Notes: generated by a model not told the origin, from the letters alone. Positions 10,389 through 17,219 are shown, counted from the first letter of the stretch. The stretch: 64,000 bases of DNA from an uncultured Desulfobacteraceae bacterium (GCA_913060875.1 CAJXSL010000009.1:62001-126000), one strand, 5' to 3'. Translations and numbers: made by a program.

Positions 10389-11288
10389 GTGATCACTCCC
10401 GCCAACAGGCCGTCGTATAGCGGTGACACCAAGCCCTTTGTCTGGGCCGGCATCTCCCTGGCGATTCCGTCAGAATGGGAAACCGGCCAACTCGGCGAAG
10501 GCTATGCCCTGCTGGAATATCGATTCCGCCCGGCCATGGAGCTTAAAACCGCACCCATTCGGGGCCGATTTTCGTTCCCGCGTCATCTCAAGCAATTGAC
10601 CCGGTCGGGATTAAACCCGTCGCCCCCGCCCGTGAAACAGATACCCCCGCCGGCCGAATGGCCGGATTTCCCCCCGGAAGCGGAGTTGGCTTGCTTCTCC
10701 TGGAAGGGGGATCATTTAAGCGGCCAGGGCCTATTGTATTACTGCCGGCAATGCTGCCGGGCCACATTGCTCCAATTCTACGACCCGGTGGGCGACATGG
10801 CCCCCCGCGTGCTGGCCTCGTTTAAAGATCATGATACACAATCCGGCCCCACCTTTGCCGTCTATGACATTGCCGCAGTCCTGCCCGAGGCCTACCGGCT
10901 CACACGGTTTGCGTTCAATGCCGGCCGCTTTGAACTCGTTTTCAGCCATGCCGGGGCCGTGGTGACCCTGTGGCGCTGGAGCCCGGCCGACGTCCTTTTG
11001 GCGCGCGCGAAGGGTCATCTGACCCCCATCGTTCAGGCCAACGGTCTGCTCCCGGCTGTGGCGGCCCAGGACCCCGGGCATCCCGTCGAACAGGGTTTAG
11101 AGTGGCGCTGGCCCAACAGCAGCTGGCGAAACCGCCTGGGGCGTCTAAGAACAGCATCAGCCCCGCCCGTCAATGCACTGCGCATCTGGCACCGACCAGA
11201 TGCCAACCGAATCCTGGCGGTAGGGGCCGAAGGTGTTGCCGAAGGGGATATTTTTGACAGGATTTGCCGATCGTATGGGATTATTTAG
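10389..11288 (+). CDS. Soluble protein of unknown family, linked to PqqD-like gene
   Basis: This 299-residue protein has no signal peptide or membrane helix and I cannot assign it to a family. Two parts are visible. The N-terminal half has the pattern FVWAGISLAIPSEWETGQL, a beta-rich 'V/I-P-x-x-W-E' opening. The second half, from about residue 155, has LPEAYRLTRFAFNAGRFELVF followed by TLWRWSPADVLL. A Cys cluster YYCRQCCRA lies between them and could bind metal or form disulfides. It starts with GTG six bases after the preceding stop and its last 14 bases overlap the PqqD-like gene, so the two products are probably made together. Confidence 0.65.
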   Translation: MITPANRPSYSGDTKPFVWAGISLAIPSEWETGQLGEGYALLEYRFRPAMELKTAPIRGRFSFPRHLKQLTRSGLNPSPPPVKQIPPPAEWPDFPPEAELACFSWKGDHLSGQGLLYYCRQCCRATLLQFYDPVGDMAPRVLASFKDHDTQSGPTFAVYDIAAVLPEAYRLTRFAFNAGRFELVFSHAGAVVTLWRWSPADVLLARAKGHLTPIVQANGLLPAVAAQDPGHPVEQGLEWRWPNSSWRNRLGRLRTASAPPVNALRIWHRPDANRILAVGAEGVAEGDIFDRICRSYGII

Positions 11289-11691
11289 AAAAAAAGCTGC
11301 CGCCCCCCGGTTGTCACGGGATGAAGCTCTGCGCTGTGTTCCCGTAAAAAGCGGGGCTATTCAGGCCTCCCGCACAACAGATGATGTCATCCGCTTGCGG
11401 TATCCGCTGGTCTTAAAACCCTGGATCGCCGAATTGGCACGGCGCTTTTCCAGCAGCCCGGCCAAACCACCGGCGCGCCAGTTGGAACTGGACGAATTGG
11501 GCAGTCTGACTTGGGATTTAATCGATGGGCACCGCTCAGTCGGTGACATCGTGCGGCAATTTGCCCGTCAAACCCAGGTACATCCCAAGGAAGCCGAAAC
11601 CGCAGTGACCCAATTCCTGCGGGAACTCGGACGACGCGGCATTATCGGGATGGCCCCGGGGCAGCGCAAGGGGAACAACCGGAAGGGATAG
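11275..11691 (+). CDS. PqqD-like protein
   Basis: This 138-residue protein carries a PqqD-type winged-helix fold. After LRYPLVLKPWIAELARRF comes the diagnostic LDELGSLTWDLIDG, then HRSVGDIVRQFA and a helix ending in FLRELGRRGII. PqqD domains (RiPP recognition elements) bind precursor peptides and present them to modifying enzymes, usually radical SAM proteins; none is encoded in this window. The ATG at 11275 overlaps the end of the preceding gene by 14 bases. It is the last gene of the operon and converges with the partner-switching operon. Whether it binds a peptide here is unknown. Confidence 0.75.
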   Translation: MGLFRKKAAAPRLSRDEALRCVPVKSGAIQASRTTDDVIRLRYPLVLKPWIAELARRFSSSPAKPPARQLELDELGSLTWDLIDGHRSVGDIVRQFARQTQVHPKEAETAVTQFLRELGRRGIIGMAPGQRKGNNRKG

Positions 11692-11747: not shown

Positions 11748-12080
11748 TCAGACCGTTTTGATCGCATCGTCCAATGTCGCCTCGATGGGCAGGAATGAAT
11801 CGAAACCGGAAATCTCGAATACCTCCTTGACATAATCCTGCATGGCGCAGAGCACCAACTTGCCCTCGGCACTTTTAAGATTCTTGGTGGCCTTGAGAAT
11901 CACCCGCAACCCCGCACTGGAGATATAATCCAGATCCTGAAAATCCAAAATCAATCGTTGGGTTCCGTTCTCGATACAGTCGAATAGTTTTTGTTCAAAG
12001 CCCATCGCAGTATTGGAATCCAGGCGGCCATCGAGCTTGAACACACTGTACTGTTCATGCTTGGTTTCGGTAATATCCAT
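11748..12080 (-). CDS. STAS-domain anti-sigma factor antagonist (RsbV/SpoIIAA-like)
   Basis: This is a 110-residue single-domain STAS protein. The phosphorylatable serine motif is visible in DLDYISSAGLRVILKA, preceded by LILDFQ as in RsbV/SpoIIAA proteins. In partner switching the unphosphorylated form binds the kinase, and a PP2C phosphatase restores it. Both partners are encoded upstream in the same operon. AAGGAGG lies just before the ATG at 12080. The final target of the switch, whether a sigma factor or another protein, is not encoded here. Confidence 0.9.
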   Translation of the reverse strand: MDITETKHEQYSVFKLDGRLDSNTAMGFEQKLFDCIENGTQRLILDFQDLDYISSAGLRVILKATKNLKSAEGKLVLCAMQDYVKEVFEISGFDSFLPIEATLDDAIKTV

Positions 12081-12145: not shown

Positions 12146-12592
12146 TCAAAGTTCCTTGGTCAAAACAAGCACATTCTTCCCACCCCGGCGGCGGTACTCG
12201 ATGTGATCCATATAAGAGCGTATCAGATGAATCCCCAGGCCACCGATCTCGCGATCCTTGAAAGCGCATTTGAGATTCGGATGGGGGGCGTCGGTCGGAT
12301 TGAAGGGGATGCCGTCGTCCTCGATGGTGATTTTAAGGGCGTTGTCTTCGCTCACACAGGTGACCTGCACATGGTGCTCGTCACCGTCCGTAAACCCATG
12401 ATTGATAATATTCGTAAACAACTCATCCAGCGCCAGATTGATTTCGAAAGTCTGGCGTTTGGAAACCCCGCAGGAGCGACAAAACCCGCTGAGATGTTCG
12501 CACAGGACATCCAGTTCCGACAAGTTGTTTTTTAGAGCAAACGATATGCTTCCCATCGGCTTCTTTTGTTCGGGATTTTCGAAATGCGCCAT
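12146..12592 (-). CDS. RsbW-like serine kinase / anti-sigma factor (HATPase)
   Basis: This protein of about 148 residues has a GHKL ATPase fold of the RsbW/SpoIIAB class. The N box is NLALDELFTNIINHGF, the first glycine box is EDDGIPFNP and the second is GGLGIHLIRSYMD. It would phosphorylate the STAS protein encoded 65 bases downstream. The ATG at 12592 lies 17 bases after the end of the cyclic-nucleotide-fold gene; a later ATG at 12556 is possible, and neither has a strong ribosome site. The frame is open further upstream into the preceding gene, which is not a likely start. Confidence 0.88.
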   Translation of the reverse strand: MAHFENPEQKKPMGSISFALKNNLSELDVLCEHLSGFCRSCGVSKRQTFEINLALDELFTNIINHGFTDGDEHHVQVTCVSEDNALKITIEDDGIPFNPTDAPHPNLKCAFKDREIGGLGIHLIRSYMDHIEYRRRGGKNVLVLTKEL

Positions 12593-12609
12593 CACAGGGG
12601 GACCTTTTC

Positions 12610-13137
12610 TCACAGGGCGCTGATACCGGTCATTCCCTCCAATGATAAGCCTTTTTCCGTCATTGCAAAGAGGAGTTGCTGATCCCAGCGGCGGATGCTG
12701 TCCACAACCGACCGAAAAATCCTGGGGACCAGCTCCGGGAATTGCGCGATGGCCTTGGCGAACTTCTCCCGGGTCATCACCATGCATTCCGTATCCTGTC
12801 CGGCCTTGAGGGAAAACAGACGCCGACCGGGCGCCAGCAGCGAAAGGCCGCCGATAAAGTCCCCGGGTTGGTAGGTCCGCAGGGTCTCCTCGCCATCATC
12901 GGTTTCATGGATCAGGAACAGTTGGCCGTTGATAATGTAGACCGCCTGGCCGTCATCGTCATCCTCGTGAAAAACAAAATCTTCAGTGGTATAGGATTCA
13001 CGCCGACACAGATAGGCGAAGACCTTTAAGGTCTCCATCGGAAGGCCGGCAAAAAACTCGATCTGTCTGAGAATCTCCAGGTTTTGTTGGAACTCGCACG
13101 ACGCATCGGATTTATTTTTTTCCATGGATGAGTCCAT
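12610..13137 (-). CDS. Cyclic-nucleotide-binding-fold protein without DNA-binding domain
   Basis: This 175-residue protein consists of one cNMP-type beta-barrel (about residues 25-145) and a short C-terminal helix. The phosphate-binding cassette region reads PGDFIGGLSLLAPGRRLFSL, where a canonical cassette has Gly-Glu-Leu/Ile and a later Arg-Ala-Thr/Ser. The Glu and the key Arg appear absent, so cAMP binding is doubtful. There is no helix-turn-helix. It starts inside the end of the ABC exporter gene with a 26-base overlap, and AAGGAGTG lies before the ATG at 13137. It could act as a sensor or scaffold for the exporter or the partner switch. Confidence 0.8.
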   Translation of the reverse strand: MDSSMEKNKSDASCEFQQNLEILRQIEFFAGLPMETLKVFAYLCRRESYTTEDFVFHEDDDDGQAVYIINGQLFLIHETDDGEETLRTYQPGDFIGGLSLLAPGRRLFSLKAGQDTECMVMTREKFAKAIAQFPELVPRIFRSVVDSIRRWDQQLLFAMTEKGLSLEGMTGISAL

Positions 13138-15628
13138 AAAGCACTCCTTTTTGAGCCATGAGATCGTCGTAACTTCCGATTTCAATCAATTTACCCGCCT
13201 TCATCACCGCCACCTTGTCATAATCGCTGATGATGTCCAGGCGATGAACCACCGCAATCACGGTCGTCCTGCCCTTCAGGCGGGTTCCCAGAAAATTTTG
13301 GATGCGGGCCTGGGAATTGTTATCCAGCGCGGAAGTGGCCTCGTCCATAATCAGCAGATGCGGCGATTTTAAAAAGACGCGGGCGATGGCCAGCTTTTGG
13401 CGCTGGCCGCCGGACAGCTTGTCCCCCTTGCTGCCGACCTGAAACTGCATACCGATGCCGACGATCGTCTCAAGAAGGTCTTCCTCGATCAGCAGCTGAA
13501 TAATGCTCTGGACAATGGAGTCCTGGGCCTTGGGCCTGGTGGTTTTGGTTTTGCCGAAAAATATATTGTTCTGGATCGTCTGGGAAAAAATATAGTCTCC
13601 CTCGTCGTAGAAGGCAAACGCATCCGGATGATCCTTGTGAATCTGCTCTTTGAACAGGGCGCGGCCCTCCAGAATGAGCCGCTCCAGGAGTTCGGGGAAA
13701 GATACCATTTTATGGCGCCCGGGAATAAAGCGCAGCGCCAGCTCCAGCAGCTTGTACCGCTCCGCCGAAGTCAACTGGTGCAGTTTATGATGGCGTGTCT
13801 GCTGGGCCAACGGTTTGAACTCATCCAGTTCCTCCGGGGCAATCGGGCTCTGTTCGAAAAAAACTTTTTCGGGAGGGAGATTGCCAAGGATATCCACCGT
13901 CTGCCGGGCCAGGTCGGCCCCGAGTTCCATGAGCGGCCTTTTCAAGTCGGCTTTTTCCAGAAAAGCGATAAAATCACGATTCGCGGCCAGGGCCGGGCCG
14001 CTGAATTCTTGGCGTTTGGATGTACCGAACAACAAATTCGCCGCCACGCTGGAATGATACAAGTAGCGGTCTTCTTCAAAAAATTCCACATATTTGGCGA
14101 GGGTTTTGCCGAATTGCTGCCGGAAATTTTTACGCACCCGGACCAGCTGTTCCACAAGCGCACGGTCGCGTTCCGCATCGAGCATCGCGTTTAGACCGAA
14201 CCGCAGGGTGTCGACGAAAAGCCCGGTCTGGTGCAGGACCTGGATCATATCTTCCAGGGACGGCTCGGATGCTTCGTAGGCCCCGGCGGAAGCATCACGG
14301 GCAGCCTGGCAGGAATAGAGCAAATTGTCTTCGATCGTCCCGTCGAAGATGAACGGCGTCTGGGCCACAAACCCCATATTCAGGGCCATGTCTTGCTTGG
14401 TCAGTTCGCGAACTTCGGCGTTTCCAAACAGGGCCTGCCCATCGGTGTAAGCATAAAGCTGACCGATGCATTGGGCCAGCGTGCTCTTGCCACTGCCCGA
14501 AAATCCCACCAGGGCCATATGTTCGCCCGGTTTGAGTTCCAGGGAGATGTGGTCCAGCAGGCGAATCCCGTCGCCGGTGACAAACGCGAGATTCCTCACT
14601 TCCACATGGCCGTCCAGATGATAGGGGGCGCGATCGGAAGGGGCCAGGGCATGGTCTGGCTGGGTGTCGAAATAGCGCATGGTTTTGGTATAGGTGACGC
14701 TGCCGTCCTGGTATACCTGGTAGAACTGGATAAGCTCCTTCCAGGGATCGTAGAGTTTTTCCTGGGCCGAAAGAAAGGCCACCAGCGCTCCCAGCTCCAG
14801 CTGCCCCTGTATGGTCAGATAACCACCGAGGATAAAGACGAGAAAAGGCCCCAGACTGGTAAAAAAATTATTGGTAACTTTCACGCTGGCCCGGAAAAAA
14901 TCCCAGCGCAGGCGGATCCGGTAAAGCCGATCGACAATGCCGCCAAGCTTGCGGTTTTCGATGTCGTAAGCCGCGTTGCCATGCACTTCGTGAATCCCGG
15001 AAATCGTCTCCTGGATCTTGTCGGATAACACGCGGGTCGTATCCACACGCTTCTTGTTGGCCTGGTTGACCCGTTTCTGAAGCAACGGCACGAGAAATAT
15101 CACGATGGGATAAATCGACAGGGACAGACCCGCCAGCCAGGGATTGAGAAAAAAAAGATAGACGGCAAAGGCCACCAGGGTGAGCAGGTTGATGACCGGC
15201 ACGGCGATGGCCATTCCCACGAAGTTGGCCGGCAGGGTCAGCTCGGATATAAGCGAGGACACCACCAGACCCGGCTGGGTGTTGCGAAAAAAATTGAGCG
15301 GCAGGGAAATGATATGGGCGAACAAGCCCTTGCGCATCCGCGCCAGGGTTCGCTGGCTGATCATCACCTGCAACACGGTAATCAGGTATTTAAGACCGCT
15401 GGCGGTTACGACGGAAGCCAGATAAATGGCGCAGTAACGGATGAGCAGATCCACCTGCCGCAGCCGAATGGCCTCGTTGACGATCCGTTTCTGCATTTCC
15501 AGAGGCAAAACCCGGGCAACAACCGTTACGGCAATCAAGACCAGGACCACCAACTGCAATTTGGTGTTGCGGCCAAGAATCCAGCTGTTGATGGAGCGCT
15601 TAACCACGGATGGACGCGGTTTGGCCAT
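13112..15628 (-). CDS. ABC exporter half-transporter with a large insertion in its NBD
   Basis: This 838-residue protein has a type-I exporter membrane domain (about residues 25-320) fused to a nucleotide-binding domain. Walker A is GFSGSGKST near residue 375, the signature LSGGQRQK starts near 738, Walker B is LLIMDEATS and the H-loop is in VVHRLD. The distance from Walker A to the signature is about 354 residues instead of roughly 95. The extra sequence includes FIFDGTIEDNLL after a proper Q-loop glutamine (about 423), YLYHSSVAANLL (about 522) and YIFSQTIQNNIF (about 679), which look like repeats of the Q-loop region. AGGAG lies before the ATG at 15628. It sits within the partner-switching genes, and the substrate is unknown. 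Confidence 0.9.
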   Translation of the reverse strand: MAKPRPSVVKRSINSWILGRNTKLQLVVLVLIAVTVVARVLPLEMQKRIVNEAIRLRQVDLLIRYCAIYLASVVTASGLKYLITVLQVMISQRTLARMRKGLFAHIISLPLNFFRNTQPGLVVSSLISELTLPANFVGMAIAVPVINLLTLVAFAVYLFFLNPWLAGLSLSIYPIVIFLVPLLQKRVNQANKKRVDTTRVLSDKIQETISGIHEVHGNAAYDIENRKLGGIVDRLYRIRLRWDFFRASVKVTNNFFTSLGPFLVFILGGYLTIQGQLELGALVAFLSAQEKLYDPWKELIQFYQVYQDGSVTYTKTMRYFDTQPDHALAPSDRAPYHLDGHVEVRNLAFVTGDGIRLLDHISLELKPGEHMALVGFSGSGKSTLAQCIGQLYAYTDGQALFGNAEVRELTKQDMALNMGFVAQTPFIFDGTIEDNLLYSCQAARDASAGAYEASEPSLEDMIQVLHQTGLFVDTLRFGLNAMLDAERDRALVEQLVRVRKNFRQQFGKTLAKYVEFFEEDRYLYHSSVAANLLFGTSKRQEFSGPALAANRDFIAFLEKADLKRPLMELGADLARQTVDILGNLPPEKVFFEQSPIAPEELDEFKPLAQQTRHHKLHQLTSAERYKLLELALRFIPGRHKMVSFPELLERLILEGRALFKEQIHKDHPDAFAFYDEGDYIFSQTIQNNIFFGKTKTTRPKAQDSIVQSIIQLLIEEDLLETIVGIGMQFQVGSKGDKLSGGQRQKLAIARVFLKSPHLLIMDEATSALDNNSQARIQNFLGTRLKGRTTVIAVVHRLDIISDYDKVAVMKAGKLIEIGSYDDLMAQKGVLYGLIHGKK

Positions 15629-15749
15629 GAAGGATCTCCTGCCATGGCGAACAGTCGTTCGCCCGCGAAGCATTTTTCGGAGGCAACGGGTTAGACATCA
15701 GGGGACTTTTGATGTGCTACACCGAAAGCCCCCCATTGACAAGCGGATT

Positions 15750-17219
15750 TTAGGATGCCCCACCCAGTTTGACCACCACCAGGGTCGTATCGTCCTCTCG
15801 CGGCCGATCCTGTCGGTAGGCGTCGATGGACTGCAGAATGGCGTCTTTGATCGCGGCCGCCGCCCCCTCCCGGTGCCTGCGAATCGTCTCGCAAAGGTTT
15901 TCGACGCCATACATGCGGCCTGCGGGATCCCGGGTTTCATGCAGGCCGTCGGTGCCCATCAGGACAATGCTGTCCTTGGCCCAGCCCTTTTGCGTATAGG
16001 CCTGATAACGGTAATCGTGTTCGATACCCAACGCCATGCCGTTCCCCTCGAGACGTTCGAAGCGATCCCGGGTCGGATCATAAAACAACGCCGGATCATG
16101 CCCGGCCCGTATCCAGGTCAATTGCTGCCCGACAGGATCGATTTCCAGCCAGAACAGGGTGATGAACCAGCCCGTGGCCTGGATATCCTGACTCAGGAAT
16201 CGGTTGACCGCCCCGATAAGCCGGGGACCGCTCTCATAGGTCTGGACCCCCGAAACAAGGTGGGCCCGGGCGGTGGTCATGTGCAGGGCGGAGCTGATGC
16301 CGTGCCCGGAGACATCCGCGACGACAATCCCCAGACGCCCTTCCGGCAGTTGGAAGAAGTCATAATAATCGCCCCCGGTTTCCGTACAATAAAGGCTGGC
16401 GCCGGCGATATCAGCGCCTTTGAAGTCCGTCCCCCGTCGCGGCAACAGGTTTTGCTGCACGTCATCGGCCAGCTTGAGGGCCTGCAGCAGTTCCGTGCGG
16501 TGCCGTAATCCCGTGATCATCGTGTTGGTATGGCCGGCAATCACGCCAAACTCGTCCCGTGTGGCCACCGGCACCATACGGGACAGATCGCCGCGGGAAA
16601 CGTTTTCGAGAACCCGGGTCTCATTGTTGAAGAGCAGCTTCAGGTTGCGCGAATAGGAAACAATCAGGTTGACCACCAGCCCCAGCAGGACCGCCATGAT
16701 GAACACCACCTCGATCATCACCGTACGCTCGGCCTCCTTGAGGGAAGCCGCACTGGTGGTGGACTGGGCCAGCCAGGCAAAATCCCTGGAAATGACCAAT
16801 GCCAGAATAAGACATATAAAAAAGCTGAGGCAGAGCGCCACCACCGAAAATCGGCGGGTCATGGGGTAATATTTCTTCGGCGGACTGACATTCCGGTTTT
16901 GATCAAGAGCCTCCTGTATACCGTTCCGCTCACGGGCCAAGGCCATATCGAGCCCCATGAAAAAGCCCGCCACCAGGCAACCGGAAAGCAAACTCAATGC
17001 ACTGACGAGATAAAACTGGTGCACATAATGGTTAAACACCCCCACGAGGCTACCCGCCCCCATACACAAGCTCAACTCCAGTATAAACTGCCGTCGGGGG
17101 CGCTTCTCCAACGCAACCGCCAGCACCATTCGCCGCTCCAGCGGCCCGCGCAATGCGAGCGCCAGGATAAAAGCCACGCCTAACGTCGTCCCCAGCATCA
17201 CGGGGGACAGGCTCTCCAA
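15750..17219 (-). CDS. Membrane-bound SpoIIE-type PP2C serine phosphatase (RsbU-like), 5' end interrupted
   Basis: This is the phosphatase of the partner switch. Two hydrophobic N-terminal pairs and a helix near residues 120-145 precede a further helix, a HAMP-like linker (NETRVLENVSRGDLSRMVP) and a C-terminal SpoIIE domain with ETGGDYYDFF, VVADVSGHG and REDDTTLVVVKL. It would dephosphorylate the STAS protein. The 5' end is odd. The open frame begins with TTG at 17219, or GTG/ATG at 17201/17198, none with a good ribosome site. The same frame continues upstream through a single TGA (17226-17228) to an ATG at 17291 that does have AAGGAGAG. The functional start is therefore uncertain. Confidence 0.85.
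   Translation of the reverse strand: MESLSPVMLGTTLGVAFILALALRGPLERRMVLAVALEKRPRRQFILELSLCMGAGSLVGVFNHYVHQFYLVSALSLLSGCLVAGFFMGLDMALARERNGIQEALDQNRNVSPPKKYYPMTRRFSVVALCLSFFICLILALVISRDFAWLAQSTTSAASLKEAERTVMIEVVFIMAVLLGLVVNLIVSYSRNLKLLFNNETRVLENVSRGDLSRMVPVATRDEFGVIAGHTNTMITGLRHRTELLQALKLADDVQQNLLPRRGTDFKGADIAGASLYCTETGGDYYDFFQLPEGRLGIVVADVSGHGISSALHMTTARAHLVSGVQTYESGPRLIGAVNRFLSQDIQATGWFITLFWLEIDPVGQQLTWIRAGHDPALFYDPTRDRFERLEGNGMALGIEHDYRYQAYTQKGWAKDSIVLMGTDGLHETRDPAGRMYGVENLCETIRRHREGAAAAIKDAILQSIDAYRQDRPREDDTTLVVVKLGGAS

Follow-up and report, generated by a model that had tools for sequence, protein, structure and literature searches.

What are some 260 additional residues doing within the ATPase of a membrane exporter, and where did they come from? 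The question is raised by DNA from an uncultured Desulfobacteraceae bacterium (GCA_913060875.1, CAJXSL010000009.1:62001-126000; the whole 64,000-nucleotide stretch is referred to here as the window, and positions are counted from its first letter). An ATP-binding cassette (ABC) gene occupies 13112..15628 on the minus strand, as do all window features given below except one small gene. It encodes 838 amino acids plus a stop (ATG at 15628, stop at 13112); an alternative upstream ATG at 15673 would give a protein of 853 residues, and full-length homologues have 835-839. An earlier note on this DNA had pointed out that the Walker A and signature motifs of the nucleotide-binding domain (NBD) are about 354 residues apart instead of about 95, and that three short segments recur between them, which it took for internal duplication of the transmission-interface region. 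We find that the helical subdomain of the ATPase is tandemly triplicated, probably including the signature helix, and that the insertion consists of two extra, degenerate copies.

Apart from the insertion, the protein is a type IV (MsbA/Sav1866-like) ABC half-exporter. Pfam recognizes ABC_membrane (E=1.5e-27) and ABC_tran (E=7.1e-26), the latter split into two stretches between which no Pfam family matched, and the MsbA equivalog cut-off is not reached (NCBIfam TIGR02203, 307 bits vs a curated 602). The transmembrane domain lies at 14669..15601 (approximately residues 10-320; Pfam ABC_membrane 47-288), based also on alignment of a structural model to MsbA, Sav1866, and ABCB1. All ATPase motifs are intact (Walker A Lys, Q-loop Gln, LSGGQ, Walker B Asp-Glu, and H-loop His). 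Walker A (GFSGSGKST) is at 14480..14506 (residues 375-383), the signature motif LSGGQ at 13403..13417 (residues 738-742), and Walker B with the catalytic Glu (LLIMDE) at 13340..13357 (residues 758-763). Walker A and the signature are thus separated by 354 residues, as the earlier note had it (the usual distance is ~95); measured start to start, the two motifs are 103-104 residues apart in ordinary exporters of the same genome. The gap is 347-464 across 78 nonredundant homologues, the set used for all conservation counts below (a canonical group of 42 and 36 sequences from Pseudomonadota). The host genome encodes many ABC proteins, yet the insertion is present in this one only. We rejected an assembly or frameshift artefact because homologues with 82%-85% identity have the same length.

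The three segments that recur between Walker A and LSGGQ are FIFDGTIEDNLL, YLYHSSVAANLL, and YIFSQTIQNNIF, the second and third of these Q-loop look-alikes being residues 522-533 and 679-690. Compared as single sequences they score 38-50 (vs 20-22 for shuffles) and beat 497-500 of 500 shuffles. Far stronger evidence comes from repeat profiles, which we built from homologues in whole genomes, plasmids, and a genome collection and compared as sub-profiles using HHalign. The strongest match, over 83 columns, is between copies 2 and 3 (E=1.7e-17); copy 1 matches copy 3 over 58 columns (E=1.8e-9) and copy 2 over 53 columns (E=1.4e-7), whereas repeat-free control windows from residues 1-400 of the same alignment give E>0.08 against all three. 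When each 12-13-column segment was slid ungapped along the 838-column family profile, the two best places were the other two copies, and when the copy 1 helix pair was slid along the whole protein, the best matches were the pairs of copies 2 and 3. The recurrence is therefore real homology. The minimum repeated unit is a post-Q-loop segment ending N-[LI]-[LF]-[FY]-[GS], followed by a helix pair that closes on a glycine (G478, G570, and G726); the pairs read IQVLHQTGLFVDTLRFGLN, IAFLEKADLKRPLMELGAD, and IQLLIEEDLLETIVGIGMQ in copies 1, 2, and 3, respectively.

The copies can be placed as follows. Copy 1 starts with the Q-loop segment FVAQTPFIFDGTIEDNLLY at 14315..14371 (residues 420-438, with the catalytic-type Gln423 and conserved Asn435) and continues with its helix pair SLEDMIQVLHQTGLFVDTLRFGLN at 14192..14257 (residues 458-479, defined by DSSP of the model and by the profile match to copies 2 and 3) and a terminal helix at 14111..14164 (residues 489-506, with invariant Arg499). 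Copy 2 begins with VEFFEEDRYLYHSSVAANLLFG at 14024..14089 (residues 514-535, invariant Asn531), and its helix pair, FIAFLEKADLKRPLMELGAD..., is at 13886..13978 (residues 551-581). A helical spacer within copy 2, LGNLPPEKVFFEQ...LTSAERYKLLELALRF, spans 13694..13885 (residues 582-645) and leads to the copy 2 terminal helix at 13631..13693 (residues 646-666, invariant Arg656). Copy 3 begins with FAFYDEGDYIFSQTIQNNIFFG at 13553..13618 (residues 671-692, invariant Asn688 and Gly692), and its helix pair at 13448..13534 (residues 699-727) is followed by LSGGQ. The insertion as a whole, to which no Pfam family corresponds, is at 13493..14299 (approximately residues 444-712).

The terminal helices of copies 1 and 2 (residues 489-506 and 646-666, preceding copies 2 and 3) are similar to each other (z 5.4-5.7). 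Their arginines, Arg499 and Arg656, place them as the signature helix is placed with Arg750 in the third copy, and the spacing from the closing glycine to the arginine is 21 residues in copy 1, 86 including the spacer in copy 2, and 24 in copy 3. Given this register, the alignment to MsbA, and the invariant arginines, we consider these helices to be probable signature-helix equivalents, although in the profile slide they match the true signature helix at rank 4-5 only. A degenerate LSGGQ within copy 2 (LTSAERYKLLELALRF) was considered and rejected, as its profile comparison (E 0.012-0.059) was unsupportive. Gln is found at the Q-loop position of copy 1 in 42/42 canonical homologues. The equivalent position is variable in copy 2 (mostly E/P) and copy 3 (P/E/A), with Q outside the four commonest residues of the canonical group, and for that reason we dropped the idea of a conserved acidic residue standing in for the glutamine. 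Thus, copy 1 has the catalytic Gln, copy 3 runs into LSGGQ, and copy 2 has neither; judged from the alignment, copies 2 and 3 are not functional Q-loops because they lack the conserved Gln. Because the repeat spans the helix pair and probably the signature helix as well, the triplicated unit is the helical subdomain. What the earlier note called duplication, with a canonical Q-loop Gln in the first segment only, was correct in both respects, but the unit is larger than the Q-loop, and a function at the transmission interface is unproven.

Structure prediction is consistent with this picture. An AlphaFold2 model of the full protein, made with 41 family members, has a mean predicted local distance difference test score (pLDDT) of 82.5 and a predicted template modelling score (pTM) of 0.75; blocks of the insertion are mostly at 82-93, with the lowest values (62-70) at residues 441-460 and 581-590, and the membrane domain is partly weaker. 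The full model matches MsbA, Sav1866, ABCB1, and TAP1 with Z of about 31. The isolated ComA NBD aligns over 239/239 residues at 1.7 Å across model residues 336-835, so a normal NBD is complete in the model in addition to the insertion. Folded alone, residues 444-734 reach a pLDDT of 89.1 and a pTM of 0.83, and the insertion is predicted to be a compact domain of its own, with many short helices and short strands in a repeated topology. In the prediction, copies 2 and 3 run through the same elements at the same intervals (a helix, a strand, a step of 14 residues, a short helix, a strand, and helices). Their common strand-loop-helix-strand-helix order, together with the conservation described below, means that neither of the outcomes named in the earlier note as refuting a duplication was observed. 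When the insertion alone was compared with the PDB, the top two of 947 re-aligned chains were ABC NBDs: MsbA 425-498 (Z 4.7, root-mean-square deviation 2.7 over 73 residues, insertion-model residues 76-218) and ABCD3 512-589 (Z 4.5); an unrelated protein came third, at 3.5. It should be noted that this list (VIA) contains Foldseek's own matches re-ranked, and absence from it proves nothing. Weak PDB matches of the insertion sequence profile include Sav1866, ABCB19, YheI, and Ste6 (E 0.14-0.64), and copy 3 falls on the part of these proteins that follows the Q-loop. A foreign known domain is unsupported: 41 insertions were scanned and no Pfam family was found save for one chance match to DUF787.

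The threefold pattern is kept across two phyla. The insertion is present in 7%-8% of the genomes sampled in each, 28/395 for Desulfobacterota and 31/398 for Pseudomonadota (to which an alphaproteobacterial member belongs). It is also carried by 262 plasmids, for the most part from Rhizobium and Sinorhizobium. The Desulfobacterota members form one supported group with complete ATPase motifs (42/42). The Pseudomonadota members are degenerate to varying degrees: the Walker A Lys (K381) is kept in 6/36 and the catalytic Glu (E763) in 7/36, and at the H-loop position (His795) His is outside the five commonest residues. Despite this decay, all three copies are still recognizable, and their spacing is nearly constant. 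Asn531, Asn688, Gly692, Arg499, and Arg656 are identical in 78/78 sequences and Arg750 is nearly invariant; the invariant residues of the copies persist at an overall identity of about 25%-30%. Conservation of the copies while the ATPase motifs decay implies that the insertion is constrained by something besides ATP hydrolysis. A genome of the same genus has a second family copy (locus L117, 4835-7147; 771 residues), seemingly without part of the membrane domain and with no adjacent sensor gene.

The sensor gene in question is the neighbor of the ABC gene, and neither it nor the ATPase decay in relatives had been noticed in the earlier note. At 12610..13137, in a gene whose first 26 bp lie within the 3' end of the ABC gene, the window encodes a small protein with a cyclic-nucleotide-binding domain (Pfam PF00027, E=1.4e-14; E=1e-23 for the Mesorhizobium partner). 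A gene for this fold is adjacent to the ABC gene in 79/80 database loci, but these loci include many near-copies, so the nonredundant tree is the better guide. In that tree, the partner is mostly a separate gene and is fused to the C terminus in ten members (L020, L124-L131, and L133), which form a single Pseudomonadota clade (support 92); in most Desulfobacterota, the ABC and partner reading frames overlap. Fusion in some members and gene overlap in others argue for a functional pair. The best known-structure matches of a rhizobial partner include regulatory subunits of protein kinase A, and the pocket in Pseudomonadota is canonical (GE(I/M)(A/G)...R(S/T)A), as it also is in the deep-branching L111. 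In most Desulfobacterota partners, the key pocket Glu is replaced by Gly or another residue. In the genome studied here, the pocket reads GGLSLL...RRLFS, with the Glu of the phosphate-binding cassette lost and the Arg kept. This genome encodes 23 cyclic-nucleotide-binding domains and six class III nucleotide cyclases, so a cyclic nucleotide is probably available, and the partner at this locus may be unable to read it.

How might these parts work together? The reading we favor, to which we would assign an even chance, is that the extra copies are a regulatory docking or relay module, through which the state of a bound sensor-fold partner reaches the NBD or the membrane domain. The catalytic NBD would consist of the core, the copy 1 Q-loop, and the copy 3 signature, with the intervening copies and the spacer standing out from it as the regulatory module. 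The docking site of the partner would be this module or the neighboring C terminus of the NBD, and docking would alter NBD opening and closing or coupling to the membrane domain. In Desulfobacterota, the engine would be active and the partner mainly a protein-binding regulator, because its pocket usually lacks the key Glu; a linked SpoIIE-RsbW-STAS switch may provide additional input. For Pseudomonadota, where the engine has decayed and the sensor is apparently capable of binding cyclic AMP or cyclic GMP (cAMP/cGMP), the module would be a sensor-controlled pseudo-ABC membrane protein. A bolder proposal, which is possible and which we put forward tentatively, is that the triplicated subdomain signals without ATP hydrolysis, and that the Pseudomonadota protein is a cyclic-nucleotide-controlled pseudo-ABC receptor or gate, a former exporter that lost its engine and kept the copies. 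For control of an ABC exporter by a sensor of this kind, as in the reading we favor, there is a precedent in HetC, whose cyclic nucleotide monophosphate (cNMP) domain is required in vivo and binds guanosine tetraphosphate (ppGpp) rather than cAMP (PMC10986499).

Several observations weigh against a docking module made of duplicated subdomains. Eight members (L019, L026, L103, L105, L117, L123, L141, and L115, the last cut by a contig end) have no adjacent sensor gene, so the insertion does not strictly need the partner. Based on its pocket residues, the partner of the Desulfobacteraceae lineage itself is probably unable to bind a cyclic nucleotide in the usual manner. The structural resemblance of the insertion to NBDs is weak on an absolute scale (Z below 5), a Foldseek search of the PDB with only the insertion gave nothing under E=0.001, and profile comparison did not significantly match the signature-helix portion of the repeat to the true signature helix. 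Chance similarity of short amphipathic segments could be suspected from the modest single-sequence scores (38-50 vs about 22), but profile E values of 1e-7 to 1e-17, repeat-free controls above 0.08, and the reciprocity of the best matches over the whole protein refute it, and we regard it as having next to no probability. The idea behind the earlier note, that the extra copies are working transmission-interface elements, each docking a coupling helix so that one NBD engages several, draws on the fact that copies 2 and 3 keep xxN[LI][LF]FG with its invariant Asn, in a segment that follows the Q-loop near the coupling-helix groove in normal exporters. However, these copies lack the Q-loop Gln, a half-exporter has only two coupling helices and as a rule a single groove for them on each NBD, the canonical NBD does not need the insertion to be complete, and the copies stay conserved where the ATPase motifs are lost. 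We consider such a role improbable.

A more serious competitor, though still rather unlikely in our judgment, is that the insertion is a structural appendage for dimerization or stability with no regulatory role, and that the sensor gene is linked via shared transcription only. Proteins of the SMC/Rad50 and UvrA kinds have large structural insertions at the same place, and the sensor gene is absent beside a few members. Invariant residues at about 25%-30% overall identity are difficult to reconcile with this, and overlap and fusion of the sensor gene would be unusual for mere cotranscription. It is also conceivable, but quite improbable, that each Pseudomonadota protein is the degenerate half of a heterodimer, with its catalytic ABC subunit encoded at an unlinked locus and the insertion serving to pair the two. 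Degenerate half-sites are common in heterodimeric exporters and have been reviewed (PMC7756269), and an Opp-type ABC system adjoins rhizobial loci. Yet joint loss of the Walker A Lys, the catalytic Glu, and the H-loop His exceeds the usual single degenerate site, we saw no gene for an exporter-type partner beside the annotated rhizobial loci, and the Desulfobacterota members are fully canonical and need no partner.

Compared with type IV exporters (MsbA, Sav1866, TAP1, and the ComA NBD), the 838-residue protein is alike in the fold of its membrane domain and NBD and in Walker A, Q-loop, LSGGQ, Walker B, and H-loop. It differs in the ~260-residue insertion with two extra copies of the helical subdomain between Q-loop and signature, and, in Pseudomonadota, in members without the full ATPase motif set. 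In other words, it keeps the type IV exporter fold and breaks the usual domain layout, and many of its relatives break the defining chemistry. Large insertions between the Q-loop and signature lobes are shared with the ABC ATPases SMC/Rad50 and UvrA. Those are soluble DNA-repair proteins whose insertions are coiled coils or zinc- or UvrB-binding domains, whereas the insertion here is a duplication of the helical subdomain in a membrane exporter; a coiled-coil insertion of the SMC/Rad50 type is not predicted, and Pfam SMC_N is below its cut-off (27.7 vs 40 bits). HetC and other cyanobacterial exporters with a cyclic-nucleotide-binding domain likewise combine an ABC exporter with a cNMP-type sensor (PMC10986499). 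In HetC, the sensor is N-terminal and accompanied by a C39 peptidase, whereas here it is a downstream gene or a C-terminal fusion, and Pfam finds no C39 peptidase in the 838-residue protein or in L017 or L020. No curated family in Pfam or NCBIfam covers the insertion, and searches of an open-access library, judged by title and abstract, yielded no description of it or of the ABC-sensor gene pair.

Large insertions are unusual in the NBDs of ABC exporters, and a helical subdomain copied twice amounts to a natural experiment on the role of that subdomain. The family also uncouples parts that normally co-evolve: Desulfobacterota combine an intact ATPase with a worn sensor pocket, Pseudomonadota have the reverse, and key residues of the copies are invariant in both. 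Should the sensor indeed control the transporter, a second-messenger-type input would act directly on an ABC exporter or pseudo-exporter. Such a system would be present in Desulfobacterota and widespread on rhizobial plasmids, annotated merely as an ABC transporter.

Next to the sensor gene are genes of a partner-switching type. The window has an RsbW-like HATPase_c_2 gene (anti-sigma/kinase type) at 12146..12787, the true start of which is probably near 12600, and a gene for a STAS-domain protein (anti-sigma antagonist type) at 11748..12080; the order ABC, sensor, RsbW-like kinase, STAS is kept in most Desulfobacterota loci. Upstream of the ABC gene and in the same direction, 15750..17219 encodes a MASE10-HAMP-SpoIIE phosphatase, in which MASE10, a HAMP-like region, and a SpoIIE domain make a membrane sensor joined to a PP2C-type phosphatase. 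Two Desulfobacterota loci (L103, 5595-9059; L105, 4165-7483) keep the SpoIIE, HATPase, and STAS neighbors with no sensor gene between the ABC and HATPase genes, a hint that the partner-switching module has a link of its own to the transporter. Immediately beyond the STAS gene, on the plus strand, 11233-11691 encodes a small protein that by eye resembles peptide-binding proteins of the PqqD type.

In nearly all Mesorhizobium loci (L057-L102; L017, 8674-9525), the sensor gene is followed by a gene of the metallo-beta-lactamase fold (Lactamase_B_2), the product of which might act as a nucleotide phosphodiesterase; the annotation of L017 also places a class III cyclase nearby. Three glycosyltransferase genes occur at the Rhizobium etli and Phyllobacterium loci. 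Rhizobial and Azospirillum members (L145, L146, and L148) adjoin the Opp-type ABC importer (ATPase, binding protein, and two permeases), which in Azospirillum comes directly after the long ABC gene.

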